The position numbers and the translations under genes were made by a program. Positions 16,621 to 33,132 of a stretch of DNA of 33,132 nt are shown here, one piece after another; positions within the stretch are counted from its first letter, which is position 1, and each line of letters starts with the position of its first letter. The DNA is taken from positions 147,131-180,262 of the forward strand of contig CANJLD010000007.1 of assembly GCA_947475165.1 (NCBI GenBank), written 5' to 3'. The notes beneath the pieces are model-generated. The model was not told where the DNA came from and did not search any database. It saw only the letters and a program-made list of their open reading frames with translations. Source of the DNA: Bacteroidota bacterium (GTDB lineage: Bacteria; Bacteroidota; Bacteroidia; Chitinophagales; LD1).

Positions 16621-16711
16621 ACCATAAACAGCGAATGCCGAAAAGCTGAAAGAGAGTAGGTAACCGGAAAGCCGAAAACGGATTAGAGTAGGCAGAAAAA
16701 ATAAAAACAAA

Positions 16712-17551
16712 ATGGAAAGGAAAATTTATTTGCAACTGTTGGTTGTATTTTTTGCAATAACAGTTTTTAGCTCTTGCCAGGAAAAGTTAAAACTAGAGGA
16801 ACCAACCGATGAAGAATTTACAGAACTTTCTACGGCTGTTGATGAGATTGACACCACCCAACAAATATTCGAAACCCCCGGTGCCTCAAACATCAGAGCA
16901 TCATTCATGGCAGCATTCAGAAGTTGCCAAAAGGCCGGAGATTGGAAGCGTATCATATATCTGGGCTCATCAAACAAAAAATACGTGGGCGATATAATGT
17001 CGAGCGATAAAACTCTATTACGCACTGTATTAAGAGATAAACTTAACAGCGCTGAATTTCAAAAACTTATACTAGCCGGAAATGTAAGCAAGTGCGATTT
17101 AGCTAAAATAGAGGGAATAGATTTCTCTGTCTTTTTAGATGATACAAGATTTTCTCCGGAAGACACGTTAATCTCTGCTTTTCTAACCCATTACGATTCA
17201 TTATCAATATCAGAAGGTAATTGGCAAATGGATGAATTAAAAACAGACGATTTGCTAGCACTGTTAGAAAACACCAACGATCCTGTTCTAAAGAGCTACA
17301 AAAAATCATTAATAAACAAGGGAAATTTTATTATCACTAAGGTAATTAAAGTATCAGGGTTTCAAGGCACCGTGTACTCTAAAAACGATTTTGGTATTGC
17401 GGGCAATGCCGAAATACCAACGCAATTACAAGCAATAGATTCGTTTAGCGTAGGCTTAACTTTAAATGTGGTAAACAGAAAACAGGTAAACGTGTCTTCT
17501 ACTGGCGAGTTTTATGTAATAGCATCTGTATTAAAGGGAACAAAACTTTAA
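16712..17551 (+). CDS. Uncharacterised lipoprotein upstream of a papain-like protease
   Basis: 279 aa. Lipoprotein signal at 1-22: basic start (MERK), hydrophobic 'LQLLVVFFAITVF', lipobox ending SSC (Cys 22). The mature region begins acidic ('QEKLKLEEPTDEEFTELSTAVDEID') and is otherwise a mixed alpha/beta chain with no motif I recognise: 'FMAAFRSCQKAGDWKRIIYLGSSNKKYVGDI', 'ISAFLTHYDSLSISEGNWQMDELKTDDLLALLE', and a beta-rich C-terminus 'SFSVGLTLNVVNRKQVNVSSTGEFYVIASVL'. It is followed after 4 nt by the secreted protease-like gene, so the two are very likely made together; an anchoring, inhibitory or receptor role for the protease is possible but only inferred. Confidence 0.78.
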   Translation: MERKIYLQLLVVFFAITVFSSCQEKLKLEEPTDEEFTELSTAVDEIDTTQQIFETPGASNIRASFMAAFRSCQKAGDWKRIIYLGSSNKKYVGDIMSSDKTLLRTVLRDKLNSAEFQKLILAGNVSKCDLAKIEGIDFSVFLDDTRFSPEDTLISAFLTHYDSLSISEGNWQMDELKTDDLLALLENTNDPVLKSYKKSLINKGNFIITKVIKVSGFQGTVYSKNDFGIAGNAEIPTQLQAIDSFSVGLTLNVVNRKQVNVSSTGEFYVIASVLKGTKL

Positions 17552-29329: not shown

Positions 29330-30205
29330 ATGGGACAATATTCAATAAAAGAAGTAGAAACGCTTTCGGGGGTTAAAGCCCATACCTTACGTATTTGGGA
29401 GCAGCGATATGATTTCCTTAAGCCTAAGCGAACTGATACCAACATACGTTATTACACGGATGAACAATTGCGGCTGCTCTTAAACATAGGCACGCTGAAC
29501 CGCAACGGAATGAAGATTTCGAAGATTGCGGAACTTGGTAAGGAGGAGTTGAGCAAGCAGGTAATGGAAGTATATGCAGATGCTGTAGAGCCAGACAGTT
29601 TACTTGATTCGCTTATTCATTCCATGATTGATTTTGATGAGCGCAGATTTGAGAAAACACTTTCCTCTGCTATTGTAAAATTAGGTTTTGAAAAATGTTT
29701 CACGGAATTAGTATTCCCGTTTTTGCAACGTACAGGTTCGCTTTGGACAACCGGTGCTGTAAACGTGGCTCAAGAGCATTTTATCAGCAATTTAATTCGT
29801 AGAAAAATATTTGTAGCTATTGATAATCTGTTTGTGGAAGAAAAGGAGGATTCTAAAAGGTTCGTCCTCTTTTTGCCGGAAGGTGAGACACACGATGTGT
29901 TATTGTTGTTTACAGAGTATCTTCTGCGCAAGCGTAATCATGAGGTTATTTATTTAGGAGCCTCTATGCCCATTGTAGATATTCACTACATTATTAAAAG
30001 ATATAAGCCGAATTATTTAGTAACGTTTGCCACGGTGCCTTTGGGAGAAACCTCCCTATCTTCGTATCTCAAAAAGTTATTGCCTGATGGCGCAAAATGT
30101 AAAATAATGGTAGGCGGAGCTCAACTGGAACACGAAAAGCCTATCCATTCATCTTCGTTTATTTATATAAGCAGTGCTGAAGATTTACTGGCAGCAATAG
30201 TTTAG
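29330..30205 (+). CDS. MerR-family regulator with cobalamin-binding domain (CarH/LitR-like)
   Basis: 291 aa from the ATG at 29330; a TTG five codons earlier is possible. MerR HTH at ~3-70: 'YSIKEVETLSGVKAHTLRIWEQRYDFLKPKRTDTNIRYYTDEQL'. Helical B12-cap region ~90-165: 'GSLWTTGAVNVAQEHFISNLIRRK' contains the W-x9-EH signature (W139, E149, H150) that packs on adenosylcobalamin in CarH. B12-binding Rossmann domain ~177-291: axial His H188 in 'PEGETHDVLLLF', 'EVIYLGASMP', 'YLVTFATVPLG' and 'IMVGGAQL' (G262-G263). In the usual E/DxHxxG motif the Gly is Leu here. Relatives are light- or B12-responsive repressors, often of carotenoid genes. TTGTTTAA-N16-TTAAACAA sites occur before the next two genes, plausible operators for this protein. 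Confidence 0.9.
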   Translation: MGQYSIKEVETLSGVKAHTLRIWEQRYDFLKPKRTDTNIRYYTDEQLRLLLNIGTLNRNGMKISKIAELGKEELSKQVMEVYADAVEPDSLLDSLIHSMIDFDERRFEKTLSSAIVKLGFEKCFTELVFPFLQRTGSLWTTGAVNVAQEHFISNLIRRKIFVAIDNLFVEEKEDSKRFVLFLPEGETHDVLLLFTEYLLRKRNHEVIYLGASMPIVDIHYIIKRYKPNYLVTFATVPLGETSLSSYLKKLLPDGAKCKIMVGGAQLEHEKPIHSSSFIYISSAEDLLAAIV

Positions 30206-30331
30206 GCTTATTTCCCTTCTTAACTTTTATTAAGACTTCTTTTTGCAACAAATTTAGAGTTGCAGTGAACAATCTGGGAATTGTATTGTTTAAGTATATA
30301 ATTAAATAATTAAACAAAAAAATCAAGCACA
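30206..30331. other. Spacer with the promoter/operator region of the DUF4397 gene
   Basis: This 126-bp AT-rich spacer contains the dyad at 30286-30317 and no other gene. No exact TAnnTTTG element was found in it, which fits transcription by an alternative sigma factor or activation by a regulator. Confidence 0.4.
30286..30317. promoter_or_regulatory. Dyad TTGTTTAA-N16-TTAAACAA upstream of the DUF4397 gene (site 1)
   Basis: TTGTTTAA at 30286-30293 and its exact complement TTAAACAA at 30310-30317, separated by 16 AT-rich bases, ending 14 nt before the ATG. Half-sites and spacing are identical to the two sites before the sigma-factor gene. A second TTAAATAA sits immediately next to the right half-site, hinting at stacked half-sites of the sort used by CarH-type tetramers. 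Confidence 0.75.
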
Positions 30332-32755
30332 ATGAAAAAGAATTTCACAAAACTCAAAACACTGGTTGTCGCCCTGATGGCAACTACTTACACATTTGCG
30401 GGGGGGCCTTCGGCTTACGTGCAAGTATTTCACAACTGTGCAGATCCTGCTGCTGATACAGTAGCTGTATTTGCCGATTTTGGTGGTGGTCAAACCCCAC
30501 TGTTAGCATCGTTTCCATTTCGCACCGCCACCGGTTTTGTTAACGTGCCAGCAGGAAGTTCATTTACTGTACACATCAAAGCTAAGGGCAGCAATGCCGC
30601 CAGTCCTTCGCTGTATTCAGAAGTCTTAGGTCCATTAGCAGCAGATTCAAGTTACATTGTTGTTGCATCCGGAGTAGTTGGAAGCGGATTTGCGGCTAAC
30701 CCAAACAGTGTTAGTACAGCTTTCGACCTTAAAGTTATTGCACCTGCAAGACGAACAGCAGCTAATGCAGGTAAAGTTGACTTTGCGGTGTTTCATGGTG
30801 CAACCGATGCGCCAGCAGTAGATGTAAACCTTACCGGTGGACCTACCTTAGTTCCAAATGCACAGTATGGCAATGCAAGCACATATTTAGAAGTCGATCC
30901 CACTTGGTACCCTATTGATATTGCGGCTGCTGGTACTTCAACAGTTGTTGCAAGTTATATTGCCGATTTATCCGGTTTAGACGGTGGTGCTGCGGTAGTT
31001 TTTGCTTCAGGGTTTCTAACTCCTTCAACCAACAATAACGGAGCGGCCTTTGGTTTATTCGCAGTATTGGCAGATGGAACGGTGATAGAATTACCGGCTC
31101 AACAAAATGCCAACGTACAAGTAGTGCATAATTGCGCTGACCCGGCTGCCGATTCGGTGGATGTATACCTGGACGGAACTTTGTTGCTTGATAATTTCAA
31201 ATTCAGAACAGCCACTCCTTTTGTTCCTGTTTTAGCAGGAGTTAATCACAGCATTGCGGTAGCACCCGCAAGTTCTACTTCGGTAGCACAAGCTATTGCC
31301 ACTTTCCCGGCTATTAATTTGACTGCTAACGAGAATTATACAGTGTTTGCCTCAGGTGTGGTGGGTAGTGGTTTTTTGCCTAATCCCGATGGTAGGAGTA
31401 TAGCTTTTGATTTAAAGATTGTTACCAATGCGCAAATACAAGCCGTTAATAATACAAAGGTGGACTTCGCTATTTTTCATGGAACTACAGATGCCCCAGG
31501 TGTAGATGTAAAAATTTGGAATACGAATACTGCTTTAGCTTCTAACGCAAGATATGGAGATAACACACCTTATATAGCAGTTGATCCAACCTGGTATCCT
31601 ATTAGTGTATTTCCTGCTGGTGGAAGTACTGCTTTACAAAGCTATATAGCTGACCTTAGTTCTTTAACCGGTGGTGCCGCAATTGTATTTGCTTCAGGCT
31701 TTTTAACTTCGGCAGTAAATAATAACGGACCGGCAATTGGTATTTATGCGGTACTGGCAAGCGGTACGGTTATTCAACTACCTGTTTTACAAACAGCACA
31801 AGTACAAGTATTACATAACTGCGCTGACCCTATTGCAGATTCGGTAGATGTATACATTAATGGTGGACTATCCATCGATAATTTCGCTTTCAGAACCGGA
31901 ACTCCTTTTATTCCGTTAGTAGCCGGTTATGCTAATAATGTGGCTATTGCTCCTAAAACTTCTACTTCTGTAGCGAATGCCATATGGGATAATGATTACA
32001 CCTTAACTGCAAACGAGAAATATATTTTGACAGCTTCAGGTGTAGTAGGTACTGGCTTTGCCGCTAACCCGGATGGTAAATCAATTGCTTTTGATGTATT
32101 GGTTAAAACACCGGCACAAACACAAGCATTGGTAAGTACTAATTTCGACTTTTTCGCAATACATGGTGCTACGGATGCACTTACTGTTGACGTAGTAGCT
32201 AACGGAGCTTTAACGGTAGTTAATAATGCATCTTACAGCGACCAAACAGCTTATATACCTGTGCCGGCATCTAATTACACATTAAGTGTTACAAATGCAG
32301 CAGGTACTACTACCATAGTGAGTTACATAGCCGATGTTACAGCTTTAGCAGGAAGCAGCGCAGTGATATTGGCTTCAGGTTTCTTAAACCCAGCTAATAA
32401 TAACAACGGTGCAGCATTTGGTCTTTATGTGGCTTTGCCTACTGGTGGTCCATTTATTCCATTGGCAGTTTCTACTTCTGTAAATGATTTAACCAAAGAA
32501 ATTGGCTTAAATATGTTCCCTAACCCTACCAACGGTTTACTTCAAATCAATTTCGATTTGGAAGAAACTGAAAAGATTACAATTCAAATTACAGACTTAA
32601 ATGGACGCTTGGTTAAAGATGTAATGAATGCCACTAACCTAAGCGGTAAACAAAACATAGCTGCAGACCTAAGCGATTTAAGCAACGGAATGTATATAGC
32701 AAGAATTATTACTGCCGATAAAACCATTAACAGCAAGTTTAGCTTAATGAAATAA
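30332..32755 (+). CDS. Secreted DUF4397 protein, three tandem double domains, T9SS type A sorting domain
   Basis: 807 aa. Signal peptide ~1-24 (FTKLKTLVVALMATTYTFAGG). The body is three tandem copies of a ~230-aa unit starting near bases 30416, 31112 and 31799. Each has an A half ('VQV.HNCADP.ADSVDVY..G…L.NF.FRT.TPF', ending 'GVVGSGF..NPDG.S.AFDL') and a B half ('VDFA.FHG.TDAP.VDV….Y…..Y..VDPTWYPI', ending 'ASGFL.P..NNNG.AFGLYAVL'). Both halves follow the DUF4397 pattern. The last ~75 residues, 'LNMFPNPTNGLLQINF…ITIQITDLNGRLVKDV…LSNGMYIARI', are a T9SS type A tail. Expected at the cell surface; role unknown. A dyad 14 nt upstream and a strong terminator downstream make it a self-contained unit. 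Confidence 0.92.
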   Translation: MKKNFTKLKTLVVALMATTYTFAGGPSAYVQVFHNCADPAADTVAVFADFGGGQTPLLASFPFRTATGFVNVPAGSSFTVHIKAKGSNAASPSLYSEVLGPLAADSSYIVVASGVVGSGFAANPNSVSTAFDLKVIAPARRTAANAGKVDFAVFHGATDAPAVDVNLTGGPTLVPNAQYGNASTYLEVDPTWYPIDIAAAGTSTVVASYIADLSGLDGGAAVVFASGFLTPSTNNNGAAFGLFAVLADGTVIELPAQQNANVQVVHNCADPAADSVDVYLDGTLLLDNFKFRTATPFVPVLAGVNHSIAVAPASSTSVAQAIATFPAINLTANENYTVFASGVVGSGFLPNPDGRSIAFDLKIVTNAQIQAVNNTKVDFAIFHGTTDAPGVDVKIWNTNTALASNARYGDNTPYIAVDPTWYPISVFPAGGSTALQSYIADLSSLTGGAAIVFASGFLTSAVNNNGPAIGIYAVLASGTVIQLPVLQTAQVQVLHNCADPIADSVDVYINGGLSIDNFAFRTGTPFIPLVAGYANNVAIAPKTSTSVANAIWDNDYTLTANEKYILTASGVVGTGFAANPDGKSIAFDVLVKTPAQTQALVSTNFDFFAIHGATDALTVDVVANGALTVVNNASYSDQTAYIPVPASNYTLSVTNAAGTTTIVSYIADVTALAGSSAVILASGFLNPANNNNGAAFGLYVALPTGGPFIPLAVSTSVNDLTKEIGLNMFPNPTNGLLQINFDLEETEKITIQITDLNGRLVKDVMNATNLSGKQNIAADLSDLSNGMYIARIITADKTINSKFSLMK

Positions 32756-32780
32756 TAATTTTTCATGTGTGGTTTAATGA

Positions 32781-32810
32781 GCCGTTCTCTTAGGAGAACG
32801 GCTTTTTTTT
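32781..32810 (+). terminator. Strong intrinsic terminator after the DUF4397 gene
   Basis: GCCGTTCTC (32781-32789), loop TTAG, GAGAACGGC (32794-32802), then eight T. Confidence 0.95.
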
Positions 32811-32855
32811 GTTTCGTTTAATCTGTATCACATAGCCGTTGTGTAAAGAGTGCGG

Positions 32856-32899
32856 AAATTATTGTTTAACTATTTTATAAAATAGTTAAACAATAATTT
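32856..32899. promoter_or_regulatory. Perfect 44-bp palindrome containing TTGTTTAA-N16-TTAAACAA (site 2)
   Basis: The 22 bases 32856-32877 are the exact reverse complement of 32878-32899, with no spacer at the centre (TTTTATAAAA). TTGTTTAA is at 32862-32869 and TTAAACAA at 32886-32893, the same 16-base separation as in the sites at 30286 and 32925. It lies between the DUF4397 terminator and the sigma-factor gene, 69 nt before that gene's ATG, an expected operator position. Confidence 0.85.
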
Positions 32900-32924
32900 G
32901 CATATTGAAAAATAAGTATTTTAT

Positions 32925-32956
32925 TTGTTTAATAATTATTCAAATAACTTAAACAA
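32925..32956. promoter_or_regulatory. Dyad TTGTTTAA-N16-TTAAACAA just before the sigma-factor start (site 3)
   Basis: TTGTTTAA at 32925-32932 and TTAAACAA at 32949-32956, ending 12 nt before the ATG. The right side (CAAATAACTTAAACAAAAAA) resembles that of site 1 (TAAATAATTAAACAAAAAAA), so the match extends beyond the half-sites, and the distance to the start codon is nearly the same. Confidence 0.75.
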
Positions 32957-32968
32957 AAAATAATCATC

Positions 32969-33132
32969 ATGGCAACTACAATCGACTTTGGTTCAGACAT
33001 TATGCAATACGAAAACATATTGCGCCCTTTTGCTTTTAACCTGACAAAAAGCAGAGAAGAAACAGAAGATTTAATTCAGGATACTTTCTATCGTGCACTT
33101 ACCAACGTAGAGAAATTTAGTGAAGGCACAAA
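32969..33132 (+). CDS. ECF-type RNA polymerase sigma factor (5' part only)
   Basis: The ATG at 32969 opens a frame that runs off the window after 54 codons. 'YENILRPFAFNLTKSREETEDLIQDTFYRALTNVEKFSEGT' is sigma-70 region 2: helix 'LRPFAFNLTKSREE', the polymerase-contact motif 'EDLIQDTFYRAL', and 'KFSEGT' leading to the -10-binding helix. The short N-terminus and the absence of region 1 point to an ECF sigma factor. Two copies of the 32-bp dyad lie directly upstream, so it is probably under the same control as the DUF4397 gene. In several Bacteroidota a B12-MerR gene and a sigma factor precede carotenoid genes; that is recalled context, not visible here. Confidence 0.9.
   Translation, partial: MATTIDFGSDIMQYENILRPFAFNLTKSREETEDLIQDTFYRALTNVEKFSEGT

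Follow-up and report, generated by a model that had tools for sequence, protein, structure and literature searches.

Three identical inverted repeats in a 33,132-nt stretch of a Bacteroidota genome (order Chitinophagales; contig CANJLD010000007.1 of assembly GCA_947475165.1, positions 147,131 to 180,262; hereafter the window) are very probably, at about 0.82, operators of the CarH/LitR-type B12-dependent light regulator encoded next to them. All three dyads have the form TTGTTTAA-N16-TTAAACAA; one precedes a gene for a DUF4397 repeat protein and two precede a gene for an extracytoplasmic function (ECF) sigma factor. What the analysis shows by computation is that the dyads exist and are conserved, that they track with CarH, which genes lie behind them and that part of the sites overlap promoters. 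The features concerned are the following.

29330-30205, + strand: CarH/LitR-type regulator with MerR helix-turn-helix (HTH) and B12-binding domains, 291 aa
30286-30317, unstranded: dyad 1, predicted operator, exact match to the pattern
30332-32755, + strand: DUF4397 repeat protein with a type IX secretion system (T9SS) C-terminal sorting domain, 807 aa (Pfam DUF4397, E 1.1e-48; Por_Secre_tail, E 6.2e-15)
32862-32893, unstranded: dyad 2, predicted operator upstream of the ECF promoter, a perfect 32-bp palindrome and exact match
32925-32956, unstranded: dyad 3, predicted operator over the -7 element and predicted transcription start of the ECF gene
32969-33132, + strand: ECF sigma factor gene, first 54 codons, cut by the contig end

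The sequence-only reading that drew attention to these repeats holds for half-sites and 16-base spacing alike, which are exact at all three positions, and for the gaps to the start codons, namely 14 nt before the DUF4397 gene (30317 to 30332) and 12 nt between dyad 3 and the sigma factor gene (32956 to 32969). The chance expectation is 0 (none of 100 shuffles gave a match). That reading had also seen no other copy in the window, which is correct for the exact N16 pattern, and the whole genome of 3,877,850 bases (G000) contains these three only. Dyads 2 and 3 are separated by 63 bp. Where two dyads stand in tandem ahead of an ECF gene, the separation is 63-66 bp near the window genus, 55-56 bp in Segetibacter, Ginsengibacter and locus L211, and 35-44 bp in other loci, with no single constant helical phase overall. 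The pairs in the cultured relatives Segetibacter aerophilus and Ginsengibacter hankyongi consist of N17 dyads with one mismatch.

The main spacer class is 16, and a second one is 17. Of 40 genomes (the window's own and 39 relatives), 21 contain the exact motif and none the reversed pattern. When the spacer was left free between 8 and 28 in these genomes, 37 of the 54 sites had N16, 8 had N17 and 9 had spacers of at least 20; the long-spacer sites are at about the level of the reversed control over all spacers 8-28 (14 hits in 13 of the 40 genomes), and the 8 N17 sites are far above that background. In 44 loci found by the CarH protein and not by the motif, 16 exact dyads had N16, 1 had N17 and 1 had another spacer; for dyads with one mismatch the numbers were 17, 13 and 11 in the same order. 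Thirteen of the 44 repeat loci already used, and in the other 31 the dyads with at most one mismatch numbered 13 each at N16 and N17 and 5 at the remaining spacers between 8 and 28, with 16 of the 31 loci carrying such a dyad at N16 or N17.

CarH operators mapped elsewhere consist of three or four tandem 11-bp direct repeats nnnnTnnACAn with the core TnnACA (PMC9304148, excerpt). Both half-sites of the dyad hold TAAACA, which fits this core, and they are inverted, 24 or 25 bp apart. Each is extended on its outer flank by AA (69% each), and the interior is AT-rich, with two halves that match no better than base composition predicts. No 11-bp direct repeat emerged: TnnACA lies 11 bp inside the half-site in only 2 of 214 site strands, and no conserved 11-bp repeat stands beside the dyad in 180 flank strands. 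A hidden central subsite 11 bp from each half (T15-nn-A18) was considered and rejected, as its 44 of 214 strands are about what the column frequencies give, and TnnACA is found there in the same 2 of 214.

The motif tracks with the B12-dependent MerR gene among relatives, as the sequence-only reading had proposed to check. In a class set of 396 genomes, own included, that are at least 90% complete and in which CarH was called at E up to 1e-20, the motif is present in 166 genomes and CarH in 275; both occur in 162, the motif only in 4, CarH only in 113 and neither in 117 (Fisher 8.8e-30). A CarH gene is therefore encoded by 162 of the 166 motif-bearing genomes, vs 113 of the 230 without the motif, and the reversed-pattern control hits 8 of the 396. 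The association persists after collapsing to genera (97, 1, 47 and 54 in the same order, 2.8e-19) and in the 40-genome set with full-length CarH (19, 2, 8 and 11, p 0.0014). Motifs in genomes lacking the MerR gene are thus rare (4 of 166 in the class set, 2 of 21 in the 40-genome set), and the latter two genomes are incomplete assemblies (82% and 75%). Among the 8 CarH genomes of the smaller set without exact N16, G010, G023, G024, G037 and G038 have an exact N17 or one-mismatch dyad, and the CarH regions fetched from G007, G019 and G026 showed none. A within-genus comparison covering g53, g72 and g45 found the motif in 9 of 13 CarH genomes and 0 of 4 without CarH (p 0.03), 10 of 11 and 1 of 2, and 2 of 2 and 1 of 3, respectively. 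The two are also close in the genome: for 53 of 90 sites the fetched stretch includes carH, at a median distance of 185 bp, and 6 dyads are within 100 nt of carH's own start.

The protein encoded directly upstream of dyad 1 is, by sequence, a member of the CarH/LitR family, as the earlier reading had stated. It matches Pfam MerR_1 (4.7e-18) and B12-binding_2 (3.4e-09), with PF02310 below the family cut-off (E 0.00093), and its nearest PDB relatives are the CarH chains of Thermus thermophilus (5c8d, E 1.8e-21). CarH of T. thermophilus and of Bacillus megaterium, both photoreceptor repressors using adenosylcobalamin (AdoCbl), share the MerR HTH and B12 domains, the Trp-x9-Glu-His motif and the axial His with it. 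These residues, which belong to the B12 site in the CarH/LitR family, are W139-x9-E149-H150 and H188 (GETH) in the window protein; the Trp, Glu, His and GExH His are invariant in 57 of 57 distinct full-length homologues (window included). At the next position after this Trp (residue 140 of the window protein) the T. thermophilus chain has His, whereas 40 of the 57 homologues have Gln, Thr or Ser. The post-photolysis ligand switch of CarH is ascribed to this His, so that the switch may differ in these homologues. The closest named CarH homologues are records of uncultured Bacteroidetes, Chitinophagales and Sphingobacteriales.

The genes behind the dyads are mostly light-protection genes. The motif is not scattered regardless of promoters: none of the 90 dyads lies inside an open reading frame (ORF) of at least 120 aa, and 83 have a gene start within 200 nt (100 dyad-gene pairs; the window's two sigma-gene dyads are outside these counts, as the ORF is cut by the contig end). 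Family names came from Pfam for representatives and from blast clustering for the rest. The pairs comprise ECF sigma factors (33), DUF4397 proteins (15), the GTP cyclohydrolase I FolE (9), CarH (6), CrtI (5), 6-pyruvoyl-tetrahydropterin-synthase-like proteins (4) and SRPBCC-like proteins (3; the last two named by reading of the sequence), short-chain dehydrogenases (SDR), fasciclins and lipocalins (2 each), and single CrtB, CrtZ-like and bacteriorhodopsin-family proteins; the other 16 are a T9SS-tail protein and unrelated or divergent neighbours. The blast label of L052 as DUF4397 was rejected, because only a T9SS-tail protein is found there, so that the DUF4397 sites number 15 and not 16. In locus L031, genes for a CrtI-like protein, phytoene synthase and lycopene cyclase come after the ECF gene behind the dyad. 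A dyad at L051:8694-8725, in a relative of the same order, stands 58 nt before the bacteriorhodopsin-family gene, a hint that CarH may control a rhodopsin. Dyads in L142, L143, L144 and L162 stand 20-24 nt before the 6-pyruvoyl-tetrahydropterin-synthase-like protein (138 aa), which together with FolE suggests a light-induced pterin supply, perhaps for a photolyase or cryptochrome.

Overlap between the dyad and a housekeeping promoter element, which is to be expected for a repressor, is seen at a minority of sites, though a significant one. In the window, the candidate promoter elements are as follows.

30267-30270, + strand: GAAC, candidate ECF-type -35 element of the DUF4397 gene, starting exactly 19 nt before dyad 1
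32897-32900, + strand: TTTG, candidate -33 element of the ECF gene, 19 nt before the -7 element
32920-32927, + strand: TTTATTTG, candidate -7 element of the ECF gene, one mismatch to TAnnTTTG, with its TTG common to dyad 3

Between dyads 2 and 3 the ECF gene thus carries TTTG-N19-TTTATTTG. In Flavobacterium psychrophilum, TAnnTTTG occupies -12 to -5 and serves as the housekeeping -7 box (PMC9723704, excerpt). Of 39 dyads at most 20 nt from the ATG, 11 supply with their first TTG the end of such a box (shuffled flanks: mean 2.0, maximum 8 in 2000), and 8 of these 11 have a TTG 19-21 nt upstream of the box. At sites further from the ATG such overlap is seen in 3 of 44, and in 11 of the 44 the box begins 0-20 nt downstream of the dyad (shuffles: mean 0.6, maximum 5). 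With the box in that position, a protein bound to the dyad would hide either the -7 element and the start or the region upstream of the -7 element. A scan for E. coli-type promoters yielded 6 hits, fewer than the 10.2 in shuffles, and was not used.

The DUF4397 genes show a different arrangement. GAAC is a common -35 element of ECF promoters. Of 10 long DUF4397 genes, the window's among them, 5 have it starting 19 nt ahead of the dyad (one of them, L128, with a one-mismatch dyad), and so have 2 of 9 FolE sites (with AAACTTT at 2 more) and one lipocalin site (GAACCCC). The phase seen in the window is common to 4 other DUF4397 and 2 FolE promoters of genus relatives. Eight of the 13 GAAC in 40-nt flanks fall at -19, but these represent few gene families in close relatives, so any p-value for this spacing is too small. 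Neither GAAC nor AAAC is at -19 in any of 34 ECF-gene sites. With this spacing of GAAC the -10 element would fall on the dyad's left half, which suggests a feed-forward loop.

We infer that CarH binds the dyads, that this binding responds to light and B12, and that the sigma factor reads the GAAC promoters, a chain of reasoning which supports the light or B12 control put forward by the sequence-only reading. In the dark, CarH oligomers with bound AdoCbl would occupy the inverted TTAAACAA half-sites and block RNA polymerase. The ECF sigma gene would be silenced via two dyads around its housekeeping-like promoter, and the DUF4397 gene via one dyad, whose left half would coincide with the -10 element of a GAAC-type ECF promoter. 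Light would break the Co-C bond and release CarH, upon which the sigma factor would be made and, together with the freed operators, would switch on the DUF4397 proteins and a lipocalin.

The predicted regulon of this genome is larger than the pair first proposed. Dyads do precede the DUF4397 gene and the ECF sigma gene, but a regulon of two genes is ruled out by an N17 dyad before a lipocalin gene (G000:C22:38424-38456, locus L119) and a two-mismatch dyad before a second DUF4397 gene (G000:C8:121850-121881, locus L231), which encodes a lipoprotein-like protein of 225 aa. The two-mismatch class is near background in G000 (16 hits vs 10 for the reversed pattern, and no one-mismatch hit), so the C8 site rests on its position before a DUF4397 gene. 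Dyads thereby precede both DUF4397 genes found by family search, exact on C7 and with two mismatches on C8; in relatives the regulon is larger still. Although the genome is 99.7% complete, it gave no match in a search for phytoene synthase (PF00494), which was positive for 14 of 20 genomes and for 7 of 14 controls; no CrtI was found at E 1e-30, in a search without a positive control. Its sole FolE match at E 1e-20 is 44% identical to a relative's dyad-bearing FolE. In the relative G010, which likewise gave no PF00494 match, DUF4397 is preceded by a one-mismatch dyad and FolE by an N17 dyad.

Several of these features recall known light regulons. Characterised CarH operators share the TnnACA core and lie over promoter elements (PMC9304148, excerpt), as the dyads do at part of the sites here, and the PplR1 consensus T(G/A)TACA of Pseudomonas also fits TnnACA (PMC9758184, excerpt). 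The LitR/PplR regulon of Pseudomonas includes light-induced FolE and a short-chain dehydrogenase, and FolE and SDR genes are also found behind the dyads; cryptochrome/photolyase genes are light-induced under these LitR-family regulators as well (PMC9758184, excerpt). The Pseudomonas class II LitR differs in acting with a LOV protein, and neither DUF4397 nor an ECF sigma factor is named in that excerpt (PMC9758184).

B12 light sensors of this kind usually control a pigment gene. In other genomes, dyads stand before the ECF-crtI-crtB-cyclase genes of L031 and before crtI at 5 sites. Chryseobacterium, a genus of Bacteroidota, offers a further comparison. In Chryseobacterium lacus, crtI, crtB, lycopene cyclase, crtZ and a lipocalin gene are upregulated in light (PMC7064467, excerpt). 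The window genome likewise has a lipocalin gene, with a dyad before it, whereas neither CrtI nor phytoene synthase is detectable there; the excerpt describes no operator (PMC7064467).

Several observations weigh against CarH as the ligand of the dyads. The half-sites are inverted, whereas characterised CarH operators are 11-bp direct repeats (PMC9304148, excerpt), and C. lacus has light-induced crt and lipocalin genes, yet its authors found no car/lit genes (PMC7064467, excerpt). For CarA of Myxococcus, inverted repeats were once assumed where direct repeats are probably read (PMC9304148, excerpt), a precedent that calls for caution with an inverted-half-site reading. An exact N16 dyad is absent from 113 of the 275 CarH genomes. 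At the promoters, exact TAnnTTTG overlap is confined to the minority of sites given above, the ECF promoters of CarH-found loci show it in 5 of 23 cases, 4 of them from genomes already used, and of the 11 boxes placed after the dyad only 4 are preceded by a TTG at 19-22 nt. The -7 element of the window itself carries one mismatch, and not all DUF4397 and FolE sites have GAAC at -19.

An alternative is that another regulator of the same light or oxidative-stress genes, encoded elsewhere and co-inherited with CarH, binds the dyad. The 37 of 90 sites without CarH in the fetched stretch and the CarH genomes without an exact dyad are in its favour, but the proximity of carH to the other 53 sites, the 6 dyads next to its own start, the near-constant presence of CarH in motif genomes and the fit of the half-site to the known CarH core make it unlikely. 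It is more improbable again that the dyad serves not as a repressor operator but as a promoter or autoregulatory site of an ECF sigma factor. ECF genes are indeed the commonest behind the dyad (33 of 90 sites), and GAAC keeps a fixed 19 nt from it at several DUF4397 and FolE promoters, but precisely the ECF genes lack that element, a sigma site needs no two-fold symmetry, and several ECF promoters have two dyads around a housekeeping-type promoter.

The short gap to the ATG in the window had also led the sequence-only reading to allow an RNA-level role, in which a hairpin near the start codon controls translation. Dyad 2 does fold at -11.9 kcal/mol; dyad 3, however, reaches only -3.0, and the mean energy of 107 dyads is -4.3 vs -3.9 with shuffled interiors. 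The inner 16 bases pair no more than composition predicts. With the -7 position of PMC9723704 (excerpt), a transcript from a promoter with the TAnnTTTG overlap would start inside the dyad and lack its left arm. ECF genes start at anything between 0 and 128 nt from the dyad, and no Rfam family reached gathering score in the dyad part of the window, the sole window match being at 16628-16662. A role of this kind is accordingly disfavoured and scarcely credible.

The remaining features of the locus concern the two genes behind the dyads and one RNA element elsewhere in the window.

32779-32804, + strand: intrinsic-terminator-like hairpin 3' of the DUF4397 gene, 11-pair stem with 6 GC pairs and a T tail (consensus match only)

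As this hairpin lies between the DUF4397 gene and dyad 2, the sigma gene is probably transcribed from its own promoter. The remainder of the gene is on contig C35, which overlaps the window contig by 129 bp, and its identity is supported by the relative's ECF protein in L031 (Pfam Sigma70_r2, 4.2e-15). Membership of a crt operon was rejected for this genome, because the next gene on C35 resembles Mrp/ApbC (by reading of the sequence). The DUF4397 repeats are predicted to be beta-sandwich modules (one repeat modelled, mean pLDDT 71.6); the model resembles extracellular domains of PepT1/PepT2 (E 3e-06, TM 0.60 by query), from which no function follows. The Rfam match mentioned above is RF02914 (DUF805b cis-regulatory RNA; 45.5 bits, + strand), upstream of an ORF at 16712.

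The literature search found no description of such an operator among the matches listed, with most subscription journals outside its coverage, and the DUF4397 matches showed no light regulon by title and abstract. The inverted TnnACA layout and a dyad regulon in a genome where neither phytoene synthase nor CrtI was detected look new relative to the literature seen. A fuller picture can be offered only tentatively, at somewhat less than even odds: a new operator grammar of inverted TnnACA half-sites 24 or 25 bp apart, a regulon that would have lost its carotenoid targets, and a feed-forward loop, with the sigma gene under CarH and the targets under both CarH and the ECF factor, that would send beta-sandwich DUF4397 proteins and a lipocalin to the cell surface in light.

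For the Bacteroidota, the dyad would provide an exact, scannable candidate operator for B12-based light sensing, from which light regulons would become predictable. Being compact and AT-rich, the candidate operator may also be of use for light-controlled expression in these bacteria. DUF4397 would gain its first physiological setting, namely the response to light.

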